Shown: positions 2,703 to 64,000 of the stretch, piece by piece
Layout of the letters: each line of letters starts with the position of its first letter
How positions within the stretch are numbered: position 1 is the first letter of the stretch
Assembly: GCA_963678705.1 (NCBI GenBank)
Contig: OY783223.1
Span: forward strand, 4,588,001 to 4,652,000
Direction of reading: 5' to 3'
From: Panorpa germanica
Lineage: Eukaryota; Arthropoda; Insecta; Mecoptera; Panorpidae
Length of the DNA stretch: 64,000 nt
Translations under genes and position numbers: made by a program
The notes under the pieces: model-generated
Seen by the model: the letters and a program-made list of their open reading frames with translations, nothing else
Databases searched by the model: none
What the model was told of the DNA's origin: nothing

Positions 2703-3679
2703 AATATTAATATTTATATATTAATTGTGTATTGTGTATGCCTTTCGGCTTTACAATCTACAGTATTATATTTCTAATACATTTCATTCCTGTATACATT
2801 CCAAACTTAAAACTAAACTTAAAATAAACTTAAAATCTTCTCGACTTTTACTACTTCCAAAAGTGCTTTCTGCTTCTTCTTCTTTTGACCCTCTCTATTA
2901 TTCTCCACCAGCTTATTTATTCTCCTGTTTTTCCTTTCCTTCTTACTATTTCCGCCATCCACCTCTTTCCTTCACTGCCTCCCTTTAATAGCTGGCCAAT
3001 ATTCCTTTCGCTTGCTACTTTTTCCTTACACTCAAACTTAATGTGCTCCAGTGTTTCGTCCTCCGCTCCACACATTCTACACTTTCTTTCCTCACTCTTT
3101 TCCCAGTATCTGTTTCCTTTTTCCTCATTTCCCAATCTAAACCTTGCTGTTCTTCTTATGTGTTTTATGTCTTTTTCTATAAGGTACTGAGGCACATTAT
3201 TTTCCCATAACCTCTTATATCTTTTATTGTAGTTACTTTTTTCTATTTTTCCCATTCTCTCCTGCTGCTGTGTCTCCTTATCCCTTCTCCTTAGCTCCTC
3301 TGCCACACTTGCGCCACCTTCTCTTCTCCTCTCTGCCTCCTCGATCGCCATTCCATTCCTTTCAAAGTATTCTTTTCTCTTTTTTGGACCTCCTCCCCCC
3401 CCATTCTTTATGTAATCCTCTCTTATTTTCTTTAAGATTTTGCTTTCCGCTCTGTTCAATTTCTCCTCGTATTTTACCGCTCTTTCCCCTGTTTTAATTC
3501 GTATCTTATCCCTCTTTAGCTCCTCCATCACCATGTATCCTGGCGTGCACCTGTCCAGCCCTAGTATCCATTTCATGTATCTCACCTGTATTCTTTCCAA
3601 CTTTTCTTGTTCCTTCCACCCCCAAACCTCTGCTCCATACGACATCATACTGGCTATCAGTCTCTCATATATCCATATT
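2703..3679 (-). mobile_element. 5'-truncated LINE (non-LTR retrotransposon), ORF2 C-terminus
   Basis: The minus-strand frame 3648-2917 (about 243 codons) starts with YGAEVWGWKEQEKLERIQ and continues LGLDRCTPGYMVMEE. This is the region that follows the reverse transcriptase domain in many insect LINEs. Near the end is a CX2CX8HX4C zinc knuckle (CRMCGAEDETLEHIKFEC), typical of R1/Jockey-related elements. The 3' UTR runs 2916-2703 and contains a GCCGAAAGGC hairpin before an AT-rich tail. The insertion is bounded by a perfect 15-bp target duplication ATGTTACACTAAGGT at 2688-2702 and 3680-3694, so it is a single, fairly recent, truncated insertion with most of the 5' part missing. Confidence 0.9.
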
Positions 3680-3694
3680 ATGTTACACTAAGGT
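3680..3694. repeat. target site duplication of LINE (right)
   Basis: Second copy of the 15-bp duplication. Its perfect identity argues for a recent insertion. Confidence 0.9.
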
Positions 3695-3790
3695 TATACT
3701 GCGAATAAAAATCGCACGGAAATAAATTCGTATGGCAAATTGGTATCAAACTTAATTGCGAATTTAAAATCGTCAGTGCGTGTACGTTAA

Positions 3791-4298
3791 GCCTCATTCC
3801 CACTCACTGTTTTGATATTTAATTTAAAAATTTTATTAAATAAAAACATTATTTAATATTGCAATCCAGATTTCAGGTTCTCGTTTGAGCATTCCTTTTC
3901 ACATTTGTGTTTTAATTTAAGTTTAGTTAATTTAGTTGGTACGTATGCGTCGTTAGTAATAAAAATTTTGACAAAATTGTAATTGAAATAATTAAAATTG
4001 TTATTTTTAATAACAATTAGTAATAGAACTTGTTTTCTTTTCTATATTTTTCAAAAACTGACATTAAACTTCTTTTAAAAGTAAATGCTACTGCATTTTG
4101 ACAGATTGTCACATTTTGGAGGTTATAATATAATATAGTTTTTCTCAATTTAATATTTTTAATTTAAAACATTGGACCTTTTAAAGTTCTAAAAAACTAA
4201 GAAAACATAAAAAAAAAATTAAATAAAAAATGGTACTGTGTGTGTCAAAAATGGTATTCTAAACAATTTAAATTAAATACATAAGTCGGAATGATACT
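3791..4298 (+). mobile_element. MITE family 2, copy 1
   Basis: About 510 bp beginning GCCTCATTCCCACTCACTG and ending in a degraded mirror of the second end (TCGGAATGATAC; intact copies read CAGTGAGTGGGAATGATAC). It aligns along its whole length with 9108-9642 and, inverted, with 10471-10994. Internal landmarks are GCATTCCTTTTCACATTTGTG and TTTTGACAGATTGTCACATTT. No open frame. The flanking bases are TTAA on one side only, so the target duplication is unclear. Confidence 0.8.
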
Positions 4299-4510
4299 TT
4301 ACGATACGATACATTATAGAATTACGAATTTATTCCTCCACTATTTTTTATTTTTTTTCGCTTTAACAAAAAATTTATTATTTTCGTAATACATAATTTG
4401 CAAAAAATTTATGTAATACATAATAAATAATCATAATTTATTTTGTGAAGTTTTATTTATACATTTCTATGTTAAAAAATATATTTTGTAATTTTCGCAA
4501 TCTATTATAT

Positions 4511-4582
<72 letters not shown>

Positions 4583-5209
4583 GTATATATGTGTACAGAA
4601 AAGTGCCACATGTTTTTTCAAGACATTACAGTTTTAGAAGCGTTGTTGTTGTTGTCCATACTGTAATAGTGAACCATAAATATGAGTCACGGTGAGTGTA
4701 ACCGGTTTTGAACATTTTTTGGAACCTGTATATATGTATCGTATGTGCAATTAAACACGTAACGTATCGTATGTAATTATTATAGTTATGCAACGAGAAT
4801 GTGTAAACGAGACACTATCTGGCATTTAAAGGACATTTGAATAATTACAGCGGCAAGCAGGTACTAGTACCGTGGCAGTGGCAATATTGCAATAATATTT
4901 AATTGTTTATTAAGCTGGTTCTTCTTGTAAATTATGATTTAATTACAGAGCCTTGATTATTGGGAAATATACAAGTAAAAAACAAAATATGCAAATAATC
5001 TTTCCTATCTTTCTCACAAATGCTTTTAAATACAAAATTCAAATACCTCGTTATTCTCCTATTTTAAATACAAAATAAAAAATAAATTTCATGTTAGTAT
5101 TTAAGTACAAAATACGCATTTTAAAAATACTTTTGAGAAAATAAAATACTCTTTATGTTACTAATATAAATGTTATTTTTTTAATAATTACGAGAATTCT
5201 CTTTGATAA
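4299..5209. other. intergenic with a (TA)n microsatellite
   Basis: The TA dinucleotide run occupies about 4516-4580. The rest is AT-rich unique sequence. The open frame that crosses the repeat (4445-4666) encodes alternating Ile-Tyr and is not a gene. Confidence 0.7.
4516..4580. repeat. (TA)n microsatellite
   Basis: About 32 uninterrupted TA units. Confidence 0.95.
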
Positions 5210-6155
5210 AGACAGACTTCGTTTTGAAACATTTTTGTTTCATAAAAATACTACCTAGAATTTTTAAAAATTGCAAAAGTAAGGGTTTTATTAGTGTTGC
5301 ATGTTTATGTCGCACTAGTATGTACGTTAAAAGTACAACACATTTAGTACACTCATGTCTAAATAATGTCAACTTATGAATGAAAATATATAAATGTTGG
5401 ATGTCGCATGTGGGGGTAGTAGGGGGTATTAAGACAATTGTACAGATAGTTTTAGATCATAGATGGTGCTAATATCGGGGGAGTTTAAAGTTTCTATTCA
5501 AAAAATAATATTTACTGATTAACACTATGAAGTAACAAAAATGAAAAAAGTATTTTGTATTTTCCAAATAGGAAATAGGTTTGTAAAAGTTTTCAAATAA
5601 AATATAAAATTCTAAACTCTTAAAAGATATTTAAATACAAAATAGAAAATAGGTGTTTACTAATTTGTATTTGCATTTTGAGTATATGTATTTGAAAAAC
5701 GCACATCTCTGGTGCTCAATAATTTTCAGTAAAAACCTTGAGCGTATTTTGGAAGGCTCTAAACTGCTTTCTTTTCAGCAGTATTTTTTACGGAGCAATT
5801 TTAAGATTATGTAATAACGATTTGGTTTCATATCTACTATTTCATACCCAATACATATTTAATTAAAGTCATAAAATGTTGAATTTAATCAAGGTGTTAC
5901 TAAATAATTTTATAGGTTCTTTACGTTCAATTTAATAGCGCGTTACTTGATACGGTCTCTAAAGGCTCTATCACACTGCAACCGTGTTCTTACGACTTGT
6001 TTTTTTTTCAGTCGCATTTAGACATGAGTGTACTAAATGTATTGTACTTTTAACGTACAGACTAGTGCGACTTAAACATGCGACACTAATAAAACCCTAA
6101 CTTATGCTATTTTAAAAAATTCTGGATAGTATTTTTATGAAACAAAAATGTTTCA
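5210..6155. mobile_element. foldback element with ~150-bp inverted arms
   Basis: The left arm (about 5210-5365) and right arm (about 6020-6155) are reverse complements with few mismatches. Shared blocks include GAAACATTTTTGTTTCATAA, TAAGGGTTTTATTAGTGT and TTTAGTACACTCATGTCTAAAT. The ~650-bp interior is AT-rich with no frame of note; the minus ORF 5372-5181 lies in the left arm and is not a gene. Family unknown. Confidence 0.7.
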
Positions 6156-6703
6156 ATTCTTCGGCGGTACTTCTAAAAGGACTCTGCTCAGAACAACGTG
6201 TTGTACAACTTTTTTCAACAAATGTTGGGTGTCGTATATTTAAATACAATATCAATTTTTATATTTGAATTAAATAATAGAACAAGGAAGTTTTTAATAA
6301 ATTCATTATGTAATTGTTTGTACATAAGTCTTATATTTATTTACTGTACACTTGAGATTATTAATTTTTTAATAAGTTTTTTACTTAATTAATTATTGTA
6401 ATTTCAATAATACATTTTTATATTTCCTTTAGTACAAGTTTGTTTTTTATATAAATAGTATTTTTTAAATATTATTTTATTGTTGCAGCCAACTAATTTG
6501 CATAATTGTATAAGCATATAACTGTTGGGACTTACCTACTAAGCAGTCACCTTCACTTTCTATTTTAGTTTAATTTACATAACGTTTAGATTTAAATCAA
6601 TATTTATTTTCTCAATTTGTATGAGATATAAAGATTCAAAATTTAAACTACTGTGTATCTTGATGGGTGACGGCGTGGGCGTACAACGTCAATTTAGAGA
6701 AGA
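6156..6703. other. intergenic, no gene seen
   Basis: AT-rich. The 64-codon frame at 6198-6392 has a composition expected by chance. Confidence 0.6.
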
Positions 6704-7295
6704 AAAGTGTACTATAGATTGATAAAGTAGGTTACTAGAACCTCAAATGTTTAATTATTTTTTAATAACTCCTTATATATTAAGAGATATTAACAATTAA
6801 AAAAGTCATTTTGTATCTTTAATTATTAAAGGGATTCAACGTTGTATACAGTCCAAGTGCATGTGACATCACAATCTTTGTGTAAGGTTACCAACCTTAC
6901 AGCTCATAAATCTCTGCTATATGTATTTATATATCAAAATATCAAATATTATTTACAGCTATTTCAAGGAACAATCAAATTTCAATATTATGTCTGCCTT
7001 AGCAGGGTTAAATAAAATAAAAACTTATTATTCTTTGATTTGACTACCAACAGCTACAGAACATTATCACAGCACAGACCTACTCAACAAATAACTGACG
7101 TTAAAATGCATTTCACGTCATACAAATATGGCCGACCATTTCTAGCGCTAAAACTATAATTCAAATTTTTAATTGCTATATCTCCGTCAATATTTAGATA
7201 TTTAATAAAATAGACACGCCAATACACATTTATTAACATCAATTTCAATCAACAATTGAAAAATTAACAACTAAAAAATGAGGACACAAGCCCAT
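6704..7295 (-). mobile_element. MITE family 1, copy B (one end missing)
   Basis: Reverse-orientation copy. The right terminus AGGACACAAGCCCA is intact at 7281-7294. The other terminal repeat is absent, the match starting abruptly at the AAAAGTGTACTATA segment. Confidence 0.85.
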
Positions 7296-8059
7296 TTTAA
7301 ATTAGTTGTATATATTTTTTAGTGTTCATATAGGCTGACAGTACTATGGTATTCTGGTCGCGTGTATTCGCTCCATCACCCATATGTGTTTACCTCAATA
7401 AAGAGAGTGTCGGTGTCGCACTTGTCTTTTAGGTTATTTTATTTGATATACGTAATAAAATCCGGCACGAAGGACCATTTAAAAAGTGTAGAAAAACTAA
7501 TTTGATTATTATCTTATAACGGCTAAGTATTCGAGAGTGTTGCGGTATTAACACTAGGTGGTCATCCAATTTATTAGTGAGATATTTCTGAATATTGAGC
7601 TTTCAGATAACGATGAATGAAATATTCGAATTATAAATAGCTGCCCCAATACGAGTGTCGAATTTAGTATCATCTCATATAAAACATCCTGATATAAGTT
7701 ATATGGATATACAGTATGTTTGTTCTATTTGAGATGATACTAAACCCGGCGAACTTATTATGACAAAATCACTGATTATAATGGCATTAAAATATGACTA
7801 ATGCATGTTAAGTAAAGGCCATGAACTTTGGGTGCATTGAAAGAATATAGGAGTAATAAATAAGCCGGCATTTATACACAAGGCTGTGTAAGAGTAAAAC
7901 CGTGCATTAATTAAGAATAGTAATGAAACTGACAAAGTCGGGTTCAAAAGTTCAATTTAATAAAGATTGCATGATTAGATATAATGACCTTATTTTAATC
8001 TTTGATTATGTGAATAATTTAAAATATCTGTAGTACAAAGTTTTTCAATAGGATTAAAA
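7296..8059. other. intergenic with a small inverted repeat
   Basis: A perfect 15-bp inverted repeat, TTTAGTATCATCTCA at 7664-7678 and its complement at 7730-7744, encloses about 50 bp. Otherwise nothing recognised. Confidence 0.6.
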
Positions 8060-14140: not shown

Positions 14141-14594
14141 TTTAAGAGTGTAGATAATAGTTGTCGCCTTACACCATCCTGTAATTTACAGTTTGTCATA
14201 CATACCTATATAAATACGATGTGTAGACGACAGTCTAATAAATAAATCAAGACTGTACGGAAGATGGGCACGGTCACACGGTCACGTGATACAATAAATG
14301 ACATCGTGCTTCCGTTATTAGATCTAATTGCTTGATCCACAGATTTCCTCTTATAGACTTATTTTATTTACCTACGATTCGATTTTATCCAATGTAAAAT
14401 TATCAATAGTTCCATTCTGTTTCGATATAAACCGAAGTCCAGTATAAATTTGTTAAATATTGCTAAATAAATAAATATTTGGGTTGTGAACAATATCTTA
14501 AATTCTAGAAATGTATATCATATATACTGTTAACTATGAAGCCCTTAAAAGTGATTTTCTTTAAATAGTCGTAATGTTATTCAAGATATAAGTA
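14141..14594. other. intergenic, no gene seen
   Basis: AT-rich spacer between repeat copies. Confidence 0.6.
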
Positions 14595-15231
14595 ATGGGC
14601 TTGTGTCCTCATTTTTTAGTGGTCGATTTTTCAATTGTTGTTTGAAATTGATGTTAATAAATATGTATTGGCGTGTCTTTTTTATTAAATATCTAAATGT
14701 TGACGGAGATATAGCAATTAAAAGTTTGAATTGTAGTTTTAGCGCTAGAAATGGTCAGCCATATTTGTATGACGTGAAATGCAGATTAACGTCAGTTATT
14801 TGTTGAGTAGGTCAGTGCTGTGGTAATGTTTTGTAGCTGTTGGTAGTCAAATAATCAAGTCAAGTCAAAGAATAATAAGTTTTTATTTTACTTAACTGTG
14901 CTAAGGCAGACATAATACTGGAATTTTGTTGTTCCTTGAAATAACTGTAAATAATATTTGATATTTTGATATATAAATACATATAGCAGAGATTTATGAG
15001 CTGTAAGGTTGGTAATCTTACACAAGGATTGTGATGTCACATGCACTTGGAATGTGTTCAACGTTGAATCCCTTTAATAATTAAAGAGACAAAATGACTT
15101 TTTTAATTGTTAATATCTCTTAACATATAAGAAGTTATTAAAAAATAATTGAACATTTGAGGTTCTAGTAACCCACTTTATCAATATATAGTACACTTTT
15201 ATAGAAATTAAGACATATTACACAAGCCCAT
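14595..15231 (+). mobile_element. MITE family 1, copy C (full length)
   Basis: Complete 637-bp copy. The left end is ATGGGCTTGTGTCCTC and the right end ACACAAGCCCAT, with TA on both outer sides, the only copy that would fit a TA target duplication. The 67-codon frame 14603-14806 is internal repeat sequence, not a gene. Confidence 0.9.
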
Positions 15232-16299
15232 TAAAAACGTTAATAGTTAAAATGGTAAAATAATTCAAAAAGTATAAAACCTACACCTTAATTAATTATT
15301 ATATCAGGTCTTTCAACAAGAGCGGTCATTTTAACTCAATTGAAAACGGTTATGAAGTTATGATATTTTTATTTTAATCTAAAGTACAAACTCTGAGGTT
15401 AGTAACGAAACACAATACCTGCCAAATTTCACCGCAATATTACTTATATTAATATTTTAGTAAAGTTAATTTCTTTATTGTGCTGACTTCACACTGAAGG
15501 ATAATTCCTTCCAATTCCAACTCCTCAACTCTAATATAAACCCTGCTTCCAACGATTTCCTTTTTATTGTCTAATGCGTCACCAAAAACACCTGCGTCAG
15601 TTAAAATATCTCTACCACAGTAAACTCGAGTCATTAAACAATTTCACTGTTAATTGACTTAAGTTGTTATGGGGAATAAAGATATACAATATGCATATAC
15701 CTTATCGTTTAATTGTTGAACACTTAAATGCAACAACGTATAAGTAAAAACAAAGAGAAAATAGTACGTGAGAGTATAATTGTTTTAAAAACTATCTCAT
15801 TATTTCAATTTCTTTTAGATCTTTATGAAAATGATTTTTAGGCGCCTCATTAAAATGCATTGTATCGTGCATTGTATGATTCTTACGCCAACATTACTTT
15901 TTATTCAAAAACTATTTATGTTAAGAAGAAAATGTTTAAATAATAGTTGTAGAATGTTAAAAATCTTTTTAAATGATATATGATATGTTTAGATTCTATA
16001 ATGGGATTAAGTGCAGTGGCGTAGTTACCATCGTATCTGCCGTATCAATGATACGGGGCCCCAAACGTGTGTAAGCAAAAATTCTTTCTTCACTATTTGA
16101 AATCAGTAATTCTGTTTCTAAAACTCTACAGCATGAAATGAATGACTTACAGAAAGCTATCAGAAGATGAGAGAATTTCAGATCGGAAGTCAATGTGTAC
16201 TTTTGCTAAAGATTTCAGAGCCTCTGTGACCTAAGTAATATGTTCGAAGTATTACAATCGGAAAAACTCTTATTTTCAAATGAAATAATAAAAAAGTAT
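15232..16299. other. intergenic with a hAT-like remnant and one coding-like ORF
   Basis: CAGTGGCGTAGTTACC at 16014 matches the usual hAT terminus, followed by ATCAATGATACGGGGCCCC, a string familiar from decayed hAT copies in insects. The separate minus frame 15634-15449 (61 codons, with VYCGRDILTDAGVFGDAL) has a protein-like composition, but I recognise no family and see no partner exons. Confidence 0.4.
15449..15634 (-). CDS. unrecognised small ORF, coding-like composition
   Basis: 61 codons from ATG to TAA. The peptide is mixed polar/hydrophobic with acidic runs (RVEELELEG) rather than the Ile/Lys/Asn/Tyr bias that chance frames show here. There is no visible signal peptide, no known motif and no neighbouring exon. 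It may be a gene fragment carried in by a transposon, or chance. Confidence 0.2.
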   Translation of the reverse strand: MTRVYCGRDILTDAGVFGDALDNKKEIVGSRVYIRVEELELEGIILQCEVSTIKKLTLLKY

Positions 16300-25700: not shown

Positions 25701-28700
25701 TGTCTAGCTACGATGAGCAAGTCTTTACCGTAGCTACAGCAGCCATGACTGAGGCTAGGTGAATAACACAAAACGAAGACAATGACGACATTAAAGATTA
25801 CGTAAACATCGTGTACATTTTTTGGACAGGTTCTTACGTTTCTTATCAATCTTGTCCATTATTTTATCTATGTGTAATAACAGCTGTCAATGATTAATTT
25901 ATTTATTTTTATAATATCATTGTTAGGTCAATATTTTGATTTTTTGTTAAATATTAACTTTCTATTAATGTGAGAAAGAATTTGACTTATTTGATCGTCC
26001 TTTGTGAAGGTAATCACTGATATATCTCTTCGTAAAATCTCAATAATACTGTCATTACTAAACTGATCATTATTGATGACAGTACAACCAATGATACTAT
26101 TCAGAATCATTTCAAAATCATTAAAATGTATGAACTTAGCACGTTTTCAAGAATACTGTACTGTCAATATTGATGCTCCAGTATCAAAATATTCAGCTCC
26201 ATGTGTTATCCTATATTATAATGTTCCAGGTGTATATTTATATGTTTATATTCTTATATGTTTGGTTCGAATGTTGTATGGTAAAACGAAAACTGCTCTA
26301 GGGAAGTTTTTCAAATTTTCGTATTCTAATTCTAAATTCTATTCTAAATTTCCCTTTCGTAGAGAACAAAATTCTAAGACTTTTGGCGTCCCCGGATTTT
26401 TTCCTGAATTTCCTGGAAACCCGTAATTTTGGAAACAATAGGCTCTTTTTTGTTGTATAACTTTGTTATTTGTAAAAGATAGAAAGATGAAATTGTGCAC
26501 GTGTATTACGCTATTGAATGAGAATATATTTCAAAATTTAGAATTCAAAATTTTATAAAAAGGGCGCCAAGAAAATTAGAGGGCCCGGTAGGAAACTTTG
26601 ATGACAGCTCAAATTTTGAATTTTGTAATAATTGAATTTCAAAATTTTATTTGGGGGCACGGGGGCAGTTTTTGCCGAGGGTAAAAAATGTGCTAGAAAG
26701 TTCAAATTTTGTATATAAGCTAACTTTGGCACGAATTATTTGTTCTTATATGTTAAATTAATATCAATTTAAAAATGTAATTAAAATTTGAAATGAAATT
26801 CAATTCACATACAAAGGACAGTCGTCGCTTGCGATCATTTATACACATCTAAAAACTTGACAAATTTAGTAATACTGTTATTATTATATCAATATTTATT
26901 AATGTCATTATTCTGCAAAATTTGTGTTGTCAAAATAATCATTATCACATAATTTTTGGTATCATTCCATATTTACGTTTTCCATCACAATCCATCATTT
27001 TTTTTGACTAAAGAAAAGACGAACTTAAAAATGATATAATTAAAACTACATTTTTAATTGTAAGTATGTTCTATAACATTACCACTGTTTAAATACATAG
27101 CTTTATCAATGTAAAGTTTAATATAATCCAAGATTAAGGTAATCTAACACAGTTATGTCATATTTACCTGTATACGCATTTATTACATAAATATTATGTA
27201 AATAATATATTTATTATGTATTATTAATAATTATTTACAATTACTCTATCCGCCATTGATCAGTCTATATGTATATTACATATATACACACACTTCTTTT
27301 TATATACCTACGAAAAGTATATAAAAGGAAGTATATAAGGATAAAACTTGGTGTACTTTTCCATCCACTTTTGCTGTGCCGTGGATCGATACTAGAGACG
27401 ATATTTCGGGTTCGACCCTTCTTAAGGTTTTTACTTTTTTGCTCCTTTTTCATTTGCTTTCCTCTAACTTTTCGGTCTTGTTATTATAGTTCTCGGCTGC
27501 ATCGATTTCTCTCTCGTTTCCACCTATCTTTTCCTGGAAATCTATAATTAATTTTTAAGGTGTTAGTTTATATTAGAAATATTATTTCTTGACGAAGAGA
27601 ATAAAAACGACAAAAAGAAAATATCTTTTTAAATTGAGAAACAAATTATTATATAAAAAATTATTTTTGAGGTTCCAATACGTAAAATTGTAACAACCGT
27701 TACTCTGGAGTACATATTAGACAACTTATAAGTCAACTTCAAAACTAAATTAAAACTAAAACGAAAATTCGTGTGCTTGCAATAATATTTTATGAAAGAG
27801 AGAGACAACACTATTTGGAAAGGTAAAGCAAATAGAGACAACGCTAACAATTTTATTTTCAGACATATTTCACAACTGCTTATATCAAATACACAGATAA
27901 TCTTCCGCGAATAAGGTCCGTGGTTTGCATATCGAACATATACGAATATGCATACGTATAACTGTATACGAACACGATTTTTTTCGTTCTAGTATCTGTA
28001 AATATCACATATTAAAGTGTATGAATCTGACAATCGGCAAAGATCACGAATAGGCGAACACGCATGTTCGGATAAGAATGGTAGTACACTGTAGAGATGA
28101 TCACGCACATTTGTGACAGGTCTGTCTTAAGACAGACTTTTGTGTGCTCATATGGAATTATCTATATCTTCCACGACAAAAACAAAATGGGCTTGTGTCC
28201 TATGTCTTAATTTCTACAAAAGTGTACTATATATTGAAAAAGTTGGTTACTAGAACCTCAAATGTTCAATTATTTTTTAATAACTCCTTATATGTTAGGA
28301 GATATTAACAATTAAAAAAGTCATTTTGTCTCTTTAATTATTAAAGGGATTCAACGTTGTACGCATTCCAAGTGCATGTGACATCACAATCCTTGTGTAA
28401 GGTTACCAACCTTACAGCTCATAAATCTCTGCTATATGTATTTATATATCAAAATATCAAATATTATTTACAGCTATTTCAAGGAACAATAAAATTCCAA
28501 TATTATGTCTGCCTTAACAGGGTTAAATAAAATAAAAACTTATTATTCTTTTATTTGCCTTGATTATTTGACTACCAACAGCTACAAAACATTACCACAG
28601 CACTGACCTACTCAACAAATAACTGACGTTAAAATGCATTTCACGTCATACAAATATGGCCGACCATTTCTAGCGCTAAAACTACAATTCAAACTTTTAA

Positions 28701-29260
28701 TTGCTATATCTCCGTCAGTATTTAGATATTTAATAAAATAGACACGCCAATACACATTTATTAACATCAATTTCAATCAACAATTGAAAAATCGACCACT
28801 AAAAAATGAGGACACAAGCCCATTGTCTGAGCGATCTGACAAGATCGCAAGGAGGTTCATATTGTTATCTACAGTATAAATTCATTTAATCCAAGACATC
28901 CCTATGAGAAAATATTATCTCATACTACTATTGAAAATTCAATAATATATTTCTTATTATTCCATTACCAGTCGTATGATACTTCCTTTTTCTGATATTA
29001 AAACACAAGTACAAATTTCCTAATATATATATTTTCTTATTGTTACAGAAAAGGACGACACACCCGCAGATTTAAGTGAACGCGTAATTTTCCGACCCAA
29101 ACAAAAAGCGGAATCAGCACTAACCATTGAAGATAATTCTAAAAATAGTGAAAAAGAAAGTGTAAAAAATAAAAGTGAAATTAAAAAAAGTAAATCTAAA
29201 AAGCAGAAATCAAAAATAGTGTTATCGTTCAACGAAGACGAAGAAGAGAACGAGTTCTGA
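22738..29260 (+). CDS. KIAA1143: KIAA1143 homologue, 3 exons, 149 aa
   Basis: Exons 22738-22845, 22963-23092 and 29049-29260, all with GT-AG junctions; the last intron splits a codon after its first base. The protein begins [20 protein letters not shown] and continues [12 protein letters not shown], then has [34 protein letters not shown] and ends [12 protein letters not shown]. This matches the human protein block for block ([60 protein letters not shown]) and in length (154 aa in human). The function is unknown. It is small, highly charged, without membrane segment or signal peptide, and probably nuclear. Intron 1 is 117 bp; intron 2 is about 6 kb and full of transposon copies. Confidence 0.92.
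23093..24686 (+). other. KIAA1143 intron 2, first part
   Basis: AT-rich. A small imperfect hairpin (ACGTTCTGTGTAA against TTACATAGAACGT) lies near 23493-23522, and AAGCTTATTCAGGACGT at about 23480 recurs in similar form near 23690 (TTAGCTTATTAGGACGT). No gene. Confidence 0.5.
24687..25270 (+). mobile_element. Helitron-like element, 3' truncated
   Basis: It starts TCCTATATTATAATGTTCCA, as does the copy at 26209; Helitrons begin with TC. The body shares GACTTTTAGCGTCC and the GGGGACACGCGGGCGGTTTT block with the other two copies. The 3' hairpin is not present. Confidence 0.55.
25271..26208 (+). other. KIAA1143 intron 2, between Helitron copies
   Basis: A possible family 2 terminus (TTAAGGAATGATAC) occurs near 25480-25497. 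No gene. Confidence 0.4.
26209..26852 (+). mobile_element. Helitron-like element, near full length (~640 bp)
   Basis: The 5' end TCCTATATTATAATG is preceded by A, and the 3' end has the hairpin core GTCGTCGCTTGCGA followed 18 nt later by CTAA, so both expected ends are present, although the hairpin is degraded. Internal blocks (GGCGTCCCCGGATTTTTTCC, GGGGGCACGGGGGCAGTTTT) match the copies at 1386 and 24687. No Rep/helicase frame; non-autonomous. Confidence 0.6.
26853..28186 (+). other. KIAA1143 intron 2; possible SINE trace
   Basis: At 27409-27418 GGTTCGACCC resembles a pol III B box in a tRNA-like context (GTGGATCGATACTAGAGACG just upstream), but no good A box is visible. Otherwise AT-rich. 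Confidence 0.3.
28187..28823 (-). mobile_element. MITE family 1, copy D (full length)
   Basis: 637 bp with both termini (TGGGCTTGTGTCCTATG at left, GAGGACACAAGCCCA at right), in reverse orientation, inside KIAA1143 intron 2 and ending 225 bp before exon 3. It is nearly identical to copies C and E. Confidence 0.9.
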
Positions 29261-30465: not shown

Positions 30466-31121
30466 GCGAAATACACAGCGAATAAAACATGAGATTAAAA
30501 CTAAACTTTAAAATTAAAACAATAGCTGAGAATGATACCAAAATCGCAAATATTTTGTATCTTATCCAAATTCAATCGGTGTTACAAATAAAAACTTTTT
30601 ATTCTCAAGAGAAAACAACTATTATATGATTTGACTGTAAATCTCCATGGTGTTCCGGACCATAAAGTCAACTGGTGGAAAGTCCTTTTTATCATCTATA
30701 CATATTTTCAACTGTTGTTTTGTACTTCCATCAGCTATGGAGTCTGTTATCCATAGACACACATACCAATATACATACATATATACTATTTTATTGGGTA
30801 GAGTTAGAGTTAGACTGATTTCTCCACAGATGTTACCTGTTGCTGAAGCTCAGCGTTTGCAGTCCTTTTATTTATATGTACCAGGGTTACCTCATAAAAT
30901 ATATAAATCTACAATTGTCGTTGTCGGGACATTTTCATCGCCGAAATGAATGTTTATATAATAGAATCTATGTGATATACTATGTTATATATAGGGGATG
31001 ATATTCTAACATAAAAATAATACGTACGATTAGGGGAGGTGTTTTTTTTATGTATTATATTTAATATATATGGAACAACTGTATTATTGCTTATAAGTAC
31101 TATATATGGCGTCCAGTTTGA
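30466..31121. other. intergenic, no gene seen
   Basis: AACAATAGCTGAGAATGATACC near 30520 recalls the end of MITE family 2. The 100-codon frame at 30647 crosses low-complexity sequence and is not convincing. Confidence 0.5.
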
Positions 31122-31757
31122 ATGGGCTTATGTCCTCATTTTTTAGTGGTCGATTTTTCAATTGTTGATTAAAATTGATGTTAATAAATGTGTATTGGCG
31201 TGTCTATTTTATTAAATATCTAAATATTGACGGAGATATAGGAATTAAAAGTTTGAATTGTAGTTTTAGCGCTAGAAATGGTCGGCCATATTTGTATGAC
31301 GTGAAATGCATTTTAACGTCAGTTATTTGTTGAGTAGGTCAGTGCTGTGGTAATGTTCTGTAGCTGTTGGTAGTCGAATAATCAAGACAAATCAAAGAAT
31401 AATAAGTTTTTATTTTATTTAACCCTGCTAAGGCAGACATAGTATTGAAATTTTATTGTTCCTTGAAATAGCTGTAAATAATATTTGATATTTTGATATA
31501 TAAATACATATAGCAGAGATTTAAGAGCTGTAAGGTTGGTAATCTTACACAAGGATTGTGATGTCACATGCATTTGGAATGTGTACAACGTTGAATCCCT
31601 TTAATAATTAAAGAGAAAAATAACTTTTTTAATTGTTAATATCTCTTAACATATAAGGAGTTATTAAAAAATAATTGAACATTTGAGGTTCTAGTAACCC
31701 ACTTTATCGATATATAGTACACTTTTATAGAAATTAAGACATAGGACACAAGCCCAT
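31122..31757 (+). mobile_element. MITE family 1, copy E (full length)
   Basis: 636 bp with both ends (ATGGGCTTATGTCCTC at left, AGGACACAAGCCCAT at right). Very close in sequence to copies C and D. Confidence 0.9.
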
Positions 31758-32634
31758 TAACCTTTAATAACCGATAGTGTTGCCAGTGAGGTAACAATTG
31801 TTAATAAATTTTAAAAAATATCTATACGGAAAATTTTAAGTTTGTTGTTAAAACAGTTAGGAAATTGAGCCACTGATACTCTAAAAATGGTATTAAGCAC
31901 AGAAATTTATGATTTACAAAAGTTTTTATATAAATTCAACTCAAATACAAAAAATAATAATTTTTAGTATTTTTTTTTTTACACAATAAGGTAGAAGTCT
32001 CCCCTAGGTTGTGGAATTGTCAGCTTATTATAGTAAAAACTTTCCAAAGAGAAAATGTGACGCAATCGAATGAGGTGGTCAATCGATATCAACAGATTTT
32101 TATATTACTTAACCTGCAAGTGAACAAAGAAATTTTCAAGCATCACATAATTTAATTCTCTGTTTAAAATAACCAATGAAATTTTCAGAAAATGTAAGCA
32201 TCTTTGCTGTATTTATAATTTAACCACTTTAAACACAATATTGATGTATCAAATTCTTTATAAAAATTTGTGCATTTGAAATAGGTCAAATCACACCTAT
32301 CTGCAAATGCTATAAAAAAGAATACCGACAAAAATTCCCTGTACACTGTCGTCCATTTCATGTTGAATATGATATTATGTGTAAAATTGTATCCTTTTTC
32401 TAATTTAATAGTCAGATAAATCGTAATTGGAACCAAATTAAATTATAACTCAGATAACATTTACCGAATACCGTTATAATGCTTGAATCTCGAATATCCT
32501 TTTTCTCTTTATCTCAAAACTCTTTATTCAGAGATATCCCACTAATGTACTGGACGATCGATATGAACGATTAAAGATCATATTAGAGAAAAAACAGATA
32601 ATATTTTTAATCTGTACATTTTTTATCAGTAGCC
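31758..32634. other. intergenic, no gene seen
   Basis: AT-rich; a few short frames, none convincing. Confidence 0.6.
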
Positions 32635-45279: not shown

Positions 45280-45544
45280 TTTTTGCGGGTAAAAGGTGAT
45301 TATGCGACATCGGTTAAGGTTAAAATGAACATAATATGAATATTGTAATTATATATCAATAAAAATATATTTATTAAATGCTTATTTCGTATAAAAATCT
45401 TTTATTTATCGCATATATGTTGGTTATCCCAGATCACAATCATTTTTTGGTTCCGTTATCATATTATAGATGACTATATCATATTATGATGAGATATAGA
45501 TGAATATATATGATAATTGAACCACTCTTTTTACTTCCGGTTTT

Positions 45545-45900
45545 ATAATATAGATGGCAGAGTTAGTTAGTTAAGATTACAACCATCAGTGTTTATTTCC
45601 AGTTTTCAAATATAGATGGCAGAGATGCTTAGCAAAGATTACAATCAATGTAGTTCCGGTTTTATAATATAGATGGCAGAGTTGCTCAGCAAAGATTAAA
45701 ACCACTTGTAGACTGGTTCCTGTTTTATAATATAGATGGCAGAGTTGTTCAGCAAAGATTACAACCAGTTGCAATTTGGTTCAGCTTTTATAATTTAGAT
45801 GGCGACAGTTATCTATCCAAGATCATTACCTTTTGGTTGGTTTTATAATTTCAATCATATTTCCTATTTAGTTCCGATTTGACAATGTAGACGGCGGTAG
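45545..45900. repeat. ~60-bp degenerate tandem repeat, about 6 units
   Basis: The anchor TAGATGGC recurs at 45551, 45613, 45670, 45733 and 45797, with a last weak unit TAGACGGC at 45888 (spacings 62, 57, 63, 64, 91). Each unit carries CCGGTTTTATAATATAGATG-like sequence and an AGCAAAGATTACAACCA segment. The minus frame through it (45774-45586) translates as a repeated peptide and is not a gene. Confidence 0.85.
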
Positions 45901-45949
45901 TATGGTGAAATACATTAAAAAATTTAATCCCTACTCAAAATAAAGTATA

Positions 45950-46060
45950 TATACCATGGTAAAATAGATATATTCTCAGTGTAGCGTTAGAGCTACTCGA
46001 GTAAAGGTAGGGGTAGGCGTCGCATTTTTTTTGCGTTTTTATAATAATTAAGTATGTTAA
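45950..46060. repeat. small palindromes leading into the hairpin cluster
   Basis: TACCATGGTA (about 45952), GTAGC...GCTAC (about 45982-45996) and TACTCGAGTA (about 45993) are short perfect palindromes; GCATTTTTTTTGCG is at 46022-46035. Confidence 0.55.
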
Positions 46061-46354
46061 TTAAAATTGTAAAGCCTAACGGCTTTACAATTTTAATGTA
46101 GTCGCCGGAGGCGACTACATGGCACCCGTAGGGTGCCATGGCAAACGCGTAGCGTTTGCCTAGTGCCCGCGGAGCGGGCACTGAATGCATCCTAGTCGCC
46201 GAAGGCGACTACATGGCACCCGAAGGGTGCCATGGCAAACGCGTAGCGTTTGCCTAGTGCCCGCGAAGCGGGCACTGGATGCCTCCGGCATCCTTAATAT
46301 ATAGTATATGTATAGGGTTACCTTCGGTAACCCTATACATATACTATATATTAA
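46061..46354. repeat. cluster of eleven contiguous perfect hairpins
   Basis: Eleven inverted repeats lie end to end with almost no spacers: 46061-46096 (16-bp stem, TAAC loop), 46097-46119, 46118-46140, 46140-46160, 46162-46182, then 46193-46211, 46212-46234, 46234-46254, 46256-46276, then 46277-46293 and 46294-46354 (29-bp stem). All arms are perfect. Loops on the plus strand are GGA, GTA, GTA, GGA, GAA, GAA, GTA, GAA, then TCC and TTC (GNA on the other strand), each closed by C-G. GC content is far above the surroundings. Hairpins 2-5 and 6-9 form a tandem duplication. No open frame. Palindrome clusters of this style are known from organelle genomes of some green algae and fungi; I know none from insect nuclear DNA. 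Origin unresolved. Confidence 0.95.
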
Positions 46355-46448
46355 TCTCGTCTAACAATATTGATTTCTCTATATATATATATATATGCTT
46401 AACAGACAACATCATATAAATACAAGTTTTAATTTTATACCAGCAAGA

Positions 46449-46680
46449 GCCACCGTGGCTCAGCGGTTAGCTCGTTGCCCCGTATTCCGTAGGTCCCGCG
46501 TTCGAATCCAAACCAAAACCCCGGCGCTACAAAAAAAAATCTTAATACGTCGCCCCACCCCCCACCCACGCCATACAACCAAACCACTATGCAACGATAC
46601 AACCGTGCCGAACCCCCCCCCCCCCTGGTGACACATCCCTCCTCGGTGGAAATAAAAAAAAAACCCTTGCTTGAATAAAA
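46449..46680 (+). mobile_element. tRNA-derived SINE
   Basis: A perfect pol III A box TGGCTCAGCGG (46456-46466) is followed at tRNA spacing by a B box CGTTCGAATCC (46499-46509). The flanks cannot fold into an acceptor stem, so this is not a tRNA gene. The body is C-rich with a 13-C run (46613-46625), and the 3' part is A-rich (AAATAAAAAAAAAA). It begins 95 bp after the hairpin cluster. Confidence 0.7.
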
Positions 46681-46689
46681 AAAAAAACG

Positions 46690-47888
46690 CACTTTTGCTA
46701 AATTTTACTAAAAAAAATTCTTTATTTTTTTTTAAATTTTCTTTTACATATTGTTACAATTTACAAAAGCTTATAAAATATATTTTTTCATTTCATTTCA
46801 TCATGAAGACTTCTTCCAGTAACTGCAATTAAAAAAAAATGTACTTAGAAAAATCGCATGTCATATCTTTTATTCTCTTTTAATTTTCTGGATAAATATA
46901 TTGTATGTCTTTAGTAAGACCTGTGTATTCAATACGAATATGTGTTATACATTTAGAGACGTGCCTACCCACTATCTTTGTTTGTCCAACATTTTCGTAA
47001 TGACTTAAATCTTTCTAAGACAAGGCCTGTCTAATGACTGGAGAGAATTATATTTGAATATTCTGGTTTCAATTTCTTACACTCTTACGTGGGATAAAAA
47101 TAATATTATAACAAATTAAGCCCTGAGTATATTTTCATAGTATTCATACATAATGTATGCACAGAGGTTTATTATAATATTCATTTCACCCCACTTAAGA
47201 ACACAACAAATTGTTAGACAGAATATATCACTCAAATATACATTTTACATCTGGCTAAATTATAACACAGCCTATTGAATATATACACACGTAAGCAAGA
47301 CAAATAATATAAGGCCTCTCTCACAATTACGACTATTTCAGTAGAGTGTAGATGCATTAGTACTTTAATGTTTATCAATATACCACTGTTGTGAAATAAT
47401 TATCAGTTCTTGCGTCTGTGATTATATCACAACAGGAATGTATTGATAAACATTAAAAAATCTTCATCTTATGATAAAGTGTGATAATGCGAACATCCCA
47501 AATACCGTACTGAAGGCGGGGTGACAAGTAATCCATAGCAGTGTAAGGGCAGCCTTAGACTATTCATTCAATATTATTTGTTCATATCCAAATACATGCA
47601 ATACATAACAGACTTAAAATACAGCCCGAGGGACGAATAGGCATAGAACAGAAATATATAATAATTAATTTTGCCTGAAGTTATTTTCTTCTAAAATGCT
47701 ACAGATACTTTACTATAAATAGAAGGGACATATTAAGAAATAGGGGAAGAAGCATCTCCCATTCATCCCCCTATTCACACAAGATTTTAACTATTAAAAT
47801 TATGCAGGACATAGTTCGTAACCTATTCGTAATGGCTTCTGAAAGGCCCGGCCCAAACAATTAAATTATTATGATAACTGATTCCTAC
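46690..47888. other. spacer, possible 3' UTR on the minus strand
   Basis: AATAAAG-type signals on the minus strand near 46710-46725 would suit the 3' end of the minus-strand transcript above. No coding region seen. Confidence 0.35.
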
Positions 47889-49256: not shown

Positions 49257-54120
<4,864 letters not shown>

Positions 54121-62480: not shown

Positions 62481-63038
62481 CACACAAAAAAAAATGTTCG
62501 CTTCTGCTTTATATTTAATACAATAATTACAAAATCAATAAAAACCGCTGGTAATTACAGGGGATTACGACCACCTAAAGTGATCATCCCTTTAACTAAA
62601 TCTTACTGCCATATGAGGATTAAAAAAGATGCATAGCAATTTAAGAAAAAATACTTTTAAAAAAATATTAGTTCAAAATTCTTTACCGTAACGAAAATAA
62701 TGAACAAACTTATGAATTAACAATCGAGAACATTTTTACTTGCAGAATATTGATTAAATGGAATTGAAATTTAAATATATGGTCTGTTTAAAGATTATGC
62801 CAGGTACATAATATAAAAGTGCCATGTACCTAACTTCTTTCCTCTTAAAAAACTGTACCACTCGCACTTAAGTGTTCCACTATCTCTTTAGAATAGATAA
62901 AGTTATAACCTGATAGTCACAGATCAGATTAACTGCCACAATACTGCGTGTAACGCTATTACATAAGTATTAAATTGTCGCGCCTACTTCAAATTGCTAT
63001 AACTCAGATAATATTCGAAGTATTACCATGGATCAAAA
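62481..63038. other. intergenic, no gene seen
   Basis: AT-rich spacer between the mariner remnant and MITE copy G. Confidence 0.6.
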
Positions 63039-63636
63039 ATGGGCTTGTGTCCTCATTTTTCAATTGTTGATTGAAATTAATGTTAATAAATGTGTATTTG
63101 CGTGTCTATTTTATTAAATATCTAAATATTCACGGAGATATAGCAATTAAAAGTTTGAATTGTAGTTTTAGCGCTAGAAATGGTCGGCCATATTTGTATG
63201 ACGTGAAATGCATTTTAACGTCAGTTATTTGTTGAGTAGGTCAGTGCTGTGGTAATGTTCTGTAGCTGTTGATAGTCAAATAATCAAGTCAAATCAAAGA
63301 TAATAAATAAATAAGACATAATATTGAAATTTGATTGTTCATTGAAATAGCTGTAAATAATATTCGATATTTTGATATATAAATACATATAGCAGAGATT
63401 TATGATCTGTAAGGTTGGTAACCGAACACAAGGATTGTGATGTCACATGCACTTGGAATGTGTACAACGTTGAATCCGTTTAATAATTAAAGAGACAAAA
63501 TGACTTTTTTAATTGTTAATATCTCCAAACATATAAGGAGTTATTAAAAAATAATTGGACATTTGAGGTTCTAGTAATCCACTTTATCAATATATAGTAC
63601 ACTTTTATAGAAATTAAGACATAGGACACAAACCCA
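63039..63636 (+). mobile_element. MITE family 1, copy G (internal deletion)
   Basis: Both ends present (ATGGGCTTGTGTCCTC at left, AGGACACAAACCCAT at right). It is about 40 bp shorter than copies C-E, having lost most of the AGTTTTTATTTTATTTAACC region and part of the left end after TCATTTTTC. Confidence 0.9.
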
Positions 63637-64000
63637 TTAAAATATTCTGAACAATATTATTAATAAATATTAGCAAAAAAATATTCGTTTTACTGAAAAT
63701 TTCAAGGTGTGCTAACCCCTTAATGCTATAATTGTTTTAATATCTTTTAAAGACAAAGAAAAATAAATAAAATAAAATTACAAAAATAAATTAATCTCAT
63801 TATTTTAACCTGGTCTCGTCTCTTACTTTATTTACTTTTTAAAGGCTCCTGCACATATTTGTTCAACTGAACTGAACAAACACAACTAAAGCAAATATAA
63901 ACATGAAAGTAATAATAAATGAACGATTTAGAAATAAATGTAATATTTTTATTTACTTTTTTAGCTTTACTCTTTTACAAAATTGTCGATGAATTTCGTT
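63637..64000. other. intergenic, no gene seen
   Basis: AT-rich right edge of the window. Confidence 0.6.

Follow-up and report, generated by a model that had tools for sequence, protein, structure and literature searches.

Arrays of perfect hairpins behind a promoter-like leader form a dispersed nuclear repeat family in Panorpa germanica

The closest described counterparts of the hairpin array analyzed here are elements of organelle genomes. In demosponge mitochondria, repetitive hairpin-forming elements (RHE) resemble the array as many dispersed perfect hairpins, which are single, double, or triple and in part GC rich; their stems are conserved, and substitutions are found only or mostly in the loops (available text of PMC2800124). 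The palindromes of Volvox and other green-algal organelles share with the array loops of 3 to 5 nt and nested insertion; compensatory stem changes were noted for the HyLIMPs of Lobosphaera, and palindrome copies occur in the Volvox nucleus (available portions of PMC2670323, PMC4524435, and PMC7235400). The double-hairpin elements of Allomyces mitochondria and the GC clusters of yeast are likewise GC-rich, mobile-looking hairpins (PMC2800124 and PMC5910586, in their accessible text). The origin of organelle hairpin elements and the upkeep of their perfection are unsettled, and a similar pattern was found here in the nuclear chromosomes of an animal.

Analysis of a 64-kb stretch of P. germanica chromosome 20 (C20:4588001-4652000), referred to as the window, revealed eleven perfect inverted repeats arranged end to end at positions 46060 to 46354. 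This confirmed the original prediction of eleven contiguous perfect hairpins, the true start lying 1 bp before the one given there. The array and its accompanying features are as follows.

45535..45803, plus strand: tandem repeat (period 63, 4.4 copies) that carries AGATGGC sites and precedes the promoter-like block.
45946..45951, plus strand: TATATA box; the A of TCAGT follows 32 bp downstream.
45975..45997, plus strand: leader CTCAGTGTAGCGTTAGAGCTACT with TCAGT, which we take to be an arthropod-type start, and the small hairpin GTAGC/GCTAC; 44 genome copies.
46025..46032, plus strand: T run after the leader, with four T invariant across 35 aligned copies.
46060..46097, plus strand: 5' AT-rich terminal hairpin with a 17-bp stem and the loop TAAC.
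46096..46293, plus strand: inner array of nine GC-rich perfect hairpins, defined by inverted-repeat calls and family comparison.
46294..46354, plus strand: 3' AT-rich terminal hairpin with a 29-bp stem and the loop TTC, showing covariation.
46355..46437, plus strand: spacer CTCGTCTAACAATATTGAT ... ATAAATACAAGTTTTAAT, conserved in the alignment of A- and C-type copies.
46438..46515, plus strand: tRNA-like tail with blocks that we presume to be A-box-like and B-box-like motifs; 17 genome matches.

The stems measure, in order, 17, 11, 10, 9, 9, 8, 10, 9, 9, 7, and 29 bp, and the loops comprise 3 nt, except for 4 nt in the first hairpin. Adjacent hairpins abut, overlap by 1 to 3 bp, or lie 1 nt apart, the sole exception being a 10-nt gap at 46183-46192; 283 of the 295 bases of the array are located inside hairpins. 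Dinucleotide shuffling of these 295 bp (n = 2000) produced a maximum of 2 hairpins (mean, 0.07), and the rest of the window contains no more than 2 perfect hairpins per 300-bp stretch. Folding of the array yielded z scores of -20.7 as DNA and -18.4 as RNA. The two outer hairpins are AT rich, and the nine inner hairpins are GC rich with three-base loops; the high GC content claimed for the middle holds for the inner hairpins but not for the outer ones. A 94-bp unit is present twice in tandem (46099-46192 and 46193-46286), and 5 of the 94 sites differ between the two units, the middle base of a loop being affected in 3 cases. The succession of inner hairpins is alpha (TAGTCGCC), beta (TGGCACCC), gamma (GGCAAACGC), and delta (AGTGCCCGC), twice over and then followed by epsilon (GGATGCC). 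The tip of the epsilon hairpin is missing from the first 94-bp unit.

Elsewhere in the window, an abundant repeat of ~640 bp was observed in six copies (1-552, 6703-7296, 14593-15236, 28186-28824, 31121-31759, and 63038-63646), which are 88 to 95% similar to a stretch of locus L111. LINE-like remains are located at 53354-54031 (RNase H match) and 2917-3648 (frame without a Pfam match). A 37-nt inverted repeat with 86% complementarity (47364-47457) gave microRNA-like Rfam scores below the gathering score. Scores of this kind on the long hairpin, none of which reached the gathering score, were taken as chance.

The genome assembly (464.2 Mb in 249 contigs; 254 scaffolds in the assembly note) was generated from HiFi reads at 52-fold coverage and has a QV of 59.9. 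A genome search revealed at least 87 matching pieces with the window array and at least 66 with a B-type array, which merged into at least 56 array loci on at least 15 of the 21 chromosomes; among the 56 loci listed, four are short fragments (three on C2, and C4:10670287). Perfect matches to TGGCACCCNNNGGGTGCCA and AGTCGCCNNNGGCGACT numbered 109 and 132, respectively, and the reversed controls gave 0. The check proposed with the original prediction, a genome search for the hairpin units, thus yielded many dispersed nuclear copies. The hairpin array is one copy of a dispersed nuclear repeat family of P. germanica.

Forty array loci were retrieved with their flanks. Under the script filter, 35 of them show 7 to 25 hairpins, L087 shows three, and L100 to L102 and L106 show one each. 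The retrieved arrays reuse variants of one set of hairpin types in a recurring order, namely, alpha TAGTCGCC, beta TGGCACCC, gamma GCAATCGC or GCAAACGC, delta GTGCCCGC or GTGGCCGC, and epsilon GGATGCC, with types substituted or missing in some subfamilies. The 5' terminal hairpin is retained in other copies (4 distinct sequences, with 64/64 pair cells Watson-Crick in a center-anchored count). Tandem units of 94 to 116 bp are confined to the inside of arrays; long head-to-tail arrays of the unit, of the satellite type, are absent, the arrays being short and the loci dispersed.

The array was not found in viral, prokaryote, plasmid, or phage collections. Against plasmids and phages, blastn gave weak matches only, with best E values of 0.3 and 1 and no more than 13% of the query covered. 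Viral pattern scans gave 1, 0, 0, 0, 0, 22, 16, and 3 hits, and prokaryote genomes gave 0 hits for a two-hairpin pattern and 19 scattered hits for a single-hairpin pattern; the 61 viral and prokaryote hit loci that were retrieved contain at most 5 perfect hairpins per 300-bp stretch. Two viral contigs (L059, 1416-1615, and L060, 980-1114) carry five separate short perfect hairpins per ~200 bp, including GCAAACGC stems; these clusters are separate from the Panorpa array and likely convergent. The hairpin cluster of a further viral contig (L031) was also set aside as separate from the Panorpa array. A literature search for the hairpin and leader sequence strings found no occurrence, and literature searches on insect or subtelomeric hairpins and on Mecoptera telomeres turned up nothing alike.

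Analysis of the region upstream of the array revealed a promoter-like block. The motif AGATGGC is found in the window at 45552, 45614, 45671, 45734, and 45797, and 11 of 12 subfamily representatives carry AGATGGC or AGACGGC in the 260 bp that precede the start. The distance from the TATA box to the A of TCAGT is 31 to 32 bp in 11 of the 12 representatives and 34 bp in the remaining one; a spacing of this size is typical for arthropod Pol II promoters. The leader is present in 36 of the 40 retrieved array loci, and in an alignment of 35 of these 36 leaders (L095 was left out), TATATA, TCAGTGTAG, and the T run are invariant. Among the 12 representatives, the leader bins show an identity of 0.78 to 0.87, compared to 0.51 to 0.72 in other bins. 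A genome search with the 23-mer leader, in which up to 2 mismatches were permitted, revealed 44 copies (41 exact and 3 with one mismatch; reversed control, 0), and for all 44 an array lies 61 to 98 bp downstream on the same strand. The 23-mer is lacking at 12 of the 56 listed array loci, four of which are the fragments; a diverged leader is present at L082, L085, L086, L103, and L109 and, for the array at C20:9003948, at 9004548. The array at C18:518137 (L117) has no leader within the retrieved stretch, and that at C8:19839853 has none among the matches to a looser leader pattern.

In A- and C-type copies, similarity to the window covers ~45943 to 46508; in B-type copies, it stops at the array end. 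Of the 17 genome matches to the tail, 14 coincide with array loci and 3 are on C16; the tail is absent from some subfamilies. Two of the three C16 matches were retrieved (L115 and L116), and both are array loci. Neither ARAGORN nor Rfam recognized a tRNA in the tail at 46438..46515, and Rfam gave no match at the gathering score. A tRNA-derived SINE was rejected, the tail not being dispersed alone. A second, opposing promoter in the right part of B-type copies was likewise rejected, its alignment score of 13 being attained by 244 of 300 shuffles.

Of the 44 leader loci, 20 are no farther than 0.5 Mb from a chromosome end, 25 no farther than 1 Mb, and 34 no farther than 2 Mb, compared to expected values of 2.1, 4.2, and 8.4. 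In 20,000 uniform simulations, in which some chromosome lengths were rounded, the maximum was 13 loci within 1 Mb of an end; owing to local duplication, the leader loci represent fewer than 44 independent events. A leader locus lies within 1 Mb at 14 of 42 chromosome ends, the exceptions to end proximity being C20 and part of C13. The setting may be a subtelomere or an end-located centromere. Several copies sit within duplicated blocks of at least 3 kb, and near-identical blocks occur across chromosomes (L098/L105, 98.7% over 3.3 kb). On the X chromosome sequence, close to its end (L113, C21:1-7500), a frame at 6623-6958, ~1.5 kb from an array, presumably corresponds to the start of a WDR92-like protein.

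The looser leader pattern matched 63 places in the genome (control, 1). Retrieval of ten new leader places revealed one array (C19, L125); the other nine have none in ~790 bp downstream, where one to five scattered hairpins are found. Because 9 of 10 new leader loci lack an array, the array is a separable module. At L126 and the near-identical L127, the leader part joins directly to the B-type sequence that lies to the right of the array, and at L118 to L124 this right-of-array sequence is present in inverted orientation. L115 and L116 (both on C16) and L125 show the full succession of leader, 5' hairpin, four inner hairpins, 3' hairpin, and tail. Their 5' hairpin stem is related to that of the family, and their inner stems differ, e.g., AGGAAGGGGCC, TGCATTCGC, and GTACGCGC. 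The inner array of L115 has 1 nine-mer in common with the window array, and 22 of its nine-mers are found somewhere in the 40 retrieved stretches.

Comparison of 15 close pairs of copies revealed substitutions at 15/3034 stem positions, 86/526 loop positions, 13/397 positions between hairpins, and 400/14567 positions of the flanks (within 500 bp). Fisher tests gave P values of 4e-37 for loops versus flanks and 6e-18 for stems versus flanks, for pairs that are not independent, some loci being reused, and whose tandem units are possibly misaligned in multi-unit arrays. Because of this possible misalignment, the three pairs lacking tandem units (L074/L075, L077/L078, and L079/L080) were taken separately; stems showed 0/363, loops 8/63, and flanks 77/2960 substitutions (stems versus flanks, P = 2.6e-4; loops versus flanks, P = 3.1e-4). 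Relative to their own flanks, the stems are slower and the loops are faster.

Changes within stems affect both arms. For the 3' hairpin, an alignment of 12 copies out of 23 (7 distinct) shows 9 of 29 pairs changed on both sides (17 cells) and none on one side only, with 4 of 202 cells unpaired; these are aligned counts, center-anchored counting being inflated by a one-base length difference. Four of five covariation measures were reached by 0 of 500 shuffles and the fifth by 1, and slid controls were far lower. One gamma pair is A-T in 22 and T-A in 72 hairpins with 0 mismatches, and one delta pair is C-G in 25, G-C in 50, T-A in 2, and T-C in 1. One stem of L116 exceeds its L115 counterpart by one base in both arms. 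A perfect inner 7-bp stem was found in 416 of 449 hairpins (up to 3 mismatches to the chosen core). The original prediction had held that the mismatch-free arms call for an explanation; the rates, the both-arm changes, and the small number of stem mismatches bear this out. Pair swaps without intermediates would be hard to obtain by stepwise mutation and selection and would be natural if one arm were copied from the other.

Triloops were counted in hairpins whose stem is perfect, 7 bp or longer, and above 40% GC (5 tRNA-like hairpins included). Of the 415 triloops, 317 are GNA or its complement TNC, i.e., 245 GNA and 72 TNC, and 98 are other. Alpha and beta loops are GNA-like, delta loops are mostly TNC-like, and gamma and epsilon loops are of both kinds. 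GNA triloops form extraordinarily stable DNA mini-hairpins; the class commonest here is the same, but that work concerns a physical structure and not a genomic family (available text of PMC6479982). Among 181 aligned loops (16 pairs), 101 are identical and 1 is an exact flip, which indicates that inversion of whole hairpins is not the main process.

We tentatively favor, at somewhat below an even chance, hairpins that act at the DNA level, with arms re-copied by fold-back and with the duplicating and recombining of larger blocks, towards chromosome ends, as the main source of copies. The region would become single stranded or extruded, and the GNA/TNC triloops would fold it into mini-hairpins. 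During repair or replication, the tip would be opened and one arm re-copied from the other by fold-back synthesis. Such re-copying would keep the arms perfect, alter both together, and make the tip the fastest-changing part; the copies would multiply chiefly as parts of larger blocks that are duplicated and recombined, with a concentration towards chromosome ends. Human Pol theta is capable of fold-back (stem-loop) synthesis; in vitro, the human enzyme copies a single strand that is folded and so produces inverted repeats (available text of PMC11292364). The constant three-base loop speaks against fold-back, as random repair of the tip need not yield it. A bolder version, possible but held with less confidence, is an undescribed class of nuclear DNA, i.e., promoter-linked self-editing palindromes whose arms are rewritten from one another, whose triloop hypermutates, and whose layout outlives its sequence, in that the slots behind one leader are occupied by different inner stems in different subfamilies.

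The strongly conserved leader points to a transcribed unit and hence to RNA, and selection on a non-coding RNA would be the main rival of the DNA-level reading. The locus would then be a multicopy non-coding RNA gene with the array as its structured part, e.g., a protein-binding scaffold, and the stems would be under selection; the putative promoter would be of the TATA/TCAGT type or a Pol III promoter, given the T run ~50 nt past the start. The conserved stems and the (nearly) invariant TATA box, start, and leader, next to bins of 0.51 to 0.72 identity, are consistent with such a gene, as is the same-strand array behind 44 of 44 main-form leaders. The small leader hairpin contains one pair that is C-G in 18 distinct sequences and U-A in 4, so that 4 distinct sequences are altered on both sides; however, for 2 of 5 covariation measures, this hairpin is not above the shuffled level (277 and 499 of 500 shuffles). 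The stem mismatches among the 449 hairpins (spurious hits included, e.g., L100 to L102) comprise 8 G-T, 16 A-C, and 25 others; 7 of the 16 A-C mismatches represent one change common to L074, L075, L077 to L080, and L106. The lack of a G-T excess argues against an RNA gene and, together with GNA loops on either strand, fits DNA better than a one-strand RNA. The A-T to T-A swaps without intermediates, the array-less leader loci (9 of the 10 further ones in the retrieved stretch), and the differing inner stems that serve in the C16 and C19 copies are also difficult for an RNA gene, and selection on stems would leave unexplained why loops change faster than flanks. On balance, an RNA gene appears rather unlikely.

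A discrete transposable element, consisting of the array or of the array with flanks and inserting behind the leader or elsewhere, is improbable. Copies dispersed over at least 15 of 21 chromosomes, leader loci without an array, and A- and C-type loci that harbor B-type units together with the right part of these units would be expected of such an element. A truncated, leaderless array on C18 (L117, C18:517700-518600), whose tail is cut in the tRNA-like part, likewise lies amid unrelated-looking surroundings and could be informative on how fragments move. However, flanks outside the array are common to different loci over 0.5 to 3 kb, and the TTAA at the edge is part of the repeated unit in all aligned copies rather than the mark of one insertion; a TTAA target-site duplication was therefore dropped. 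Terminal inverted repeats joining the array ends are absent, the outer hairpins being self-complementary and the two ends different. No transposase partner was found, and the C2 copies amount to a fragment of the 3' hairpin next to Helitron and CACTA-like pieces. At one of three near-identical C2 copies (L114, C2:17301500-17309500), the region 3687-7999 contains Helitron pieces (Helitron_like_N, PIF1) and a CACTA-like frame (weak DUF4218), and the family's 3' hairpin lies between them; a Helitron or CACTA partner was dropped, as these are fragments only. The suggestion of a self-propagating element is thus borne out in the many dispersed nuclear copies but not in a target-site duplication, discrete ends, or an enzyme, and duplicated blocks of at least 3 kb also stand against it.

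Ordinary concerted evolution, in which gene conversion and unequal exchange homogenize the stems and the loop differences are old shuffled variants, appears slightly more improbable still. Tandem units and module exchange are evident, and stems are common to many arrays, but exchange ought to homogenize the loops as well, and fast loops with still stems are also found in single-unit arrays. The C16 pair L115/L116 is alike in this respect (stems, 0/177; loops, 4/20; between hairpins, 3/11; flanks, 13/311). An assembly or sequencing artefact, suggested by the fact that hairpins can disturb sequencing and that loop differences might be errors, is hardly credible; the HiFi chromosome assembly (52-fold, QV 59.9) places at least 56 loci in locus-specific flanks, and the loop variants conform to the GNA/TNC pattern. 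Equally far-fetched is an algal, fungal, or other organelle fragment moved into the nucleus, for although the array is similar to organelle elements in its GC-rich hairpins and changing loops (PMC2800124 and PMC2670323, available text), it belongs to a large nuclear family in which a repeated unit with its own TATA box, start site, leader, and tail also carries other inner stems.

The analogy with organelle elements, as drawn in the original prediction, therefore holds as a likeness in behavior and fails by location, the family residing in chromosome-scale nuclear sequences; for this reason, the array is not classified as an organelle hairpin element. As in organellar RHE, there are many copies per genome and conserved stems with loop-centered substitutions. 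The demosponge RHE, in contrast, are mitochondrial, and the available text of their description reports no promoter or leader (PMC2800124), whereas the Panorpa array is a nuclear composite unit with ordered hairpin types, two terminal hairpins, and a tail. The Volvox palindromes are organellar, and their nuclear copies are described as inert and often degenerate with mismatched stems (PMC2670323, PMC4524435, and PMC7235400, in the text available), whereas the Panorpa stems are perfect. The Allomyces and yeast elements differ in being mitochondrial and in comprising one or two hairpins, and mobility was suggested there (available text of PMC2800124 and PMC5910586). In P. germanica, hairpin arrays are associated with chromosome ends and with a promoter-like leader that is conserved. 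Because dozens of nuclear copies have aligned flanks, the rates of stems, loops, and flanks are directly comparable, and the choice between selection on RNA and arm-to-arm copying of DNA becomes testable within one genome.
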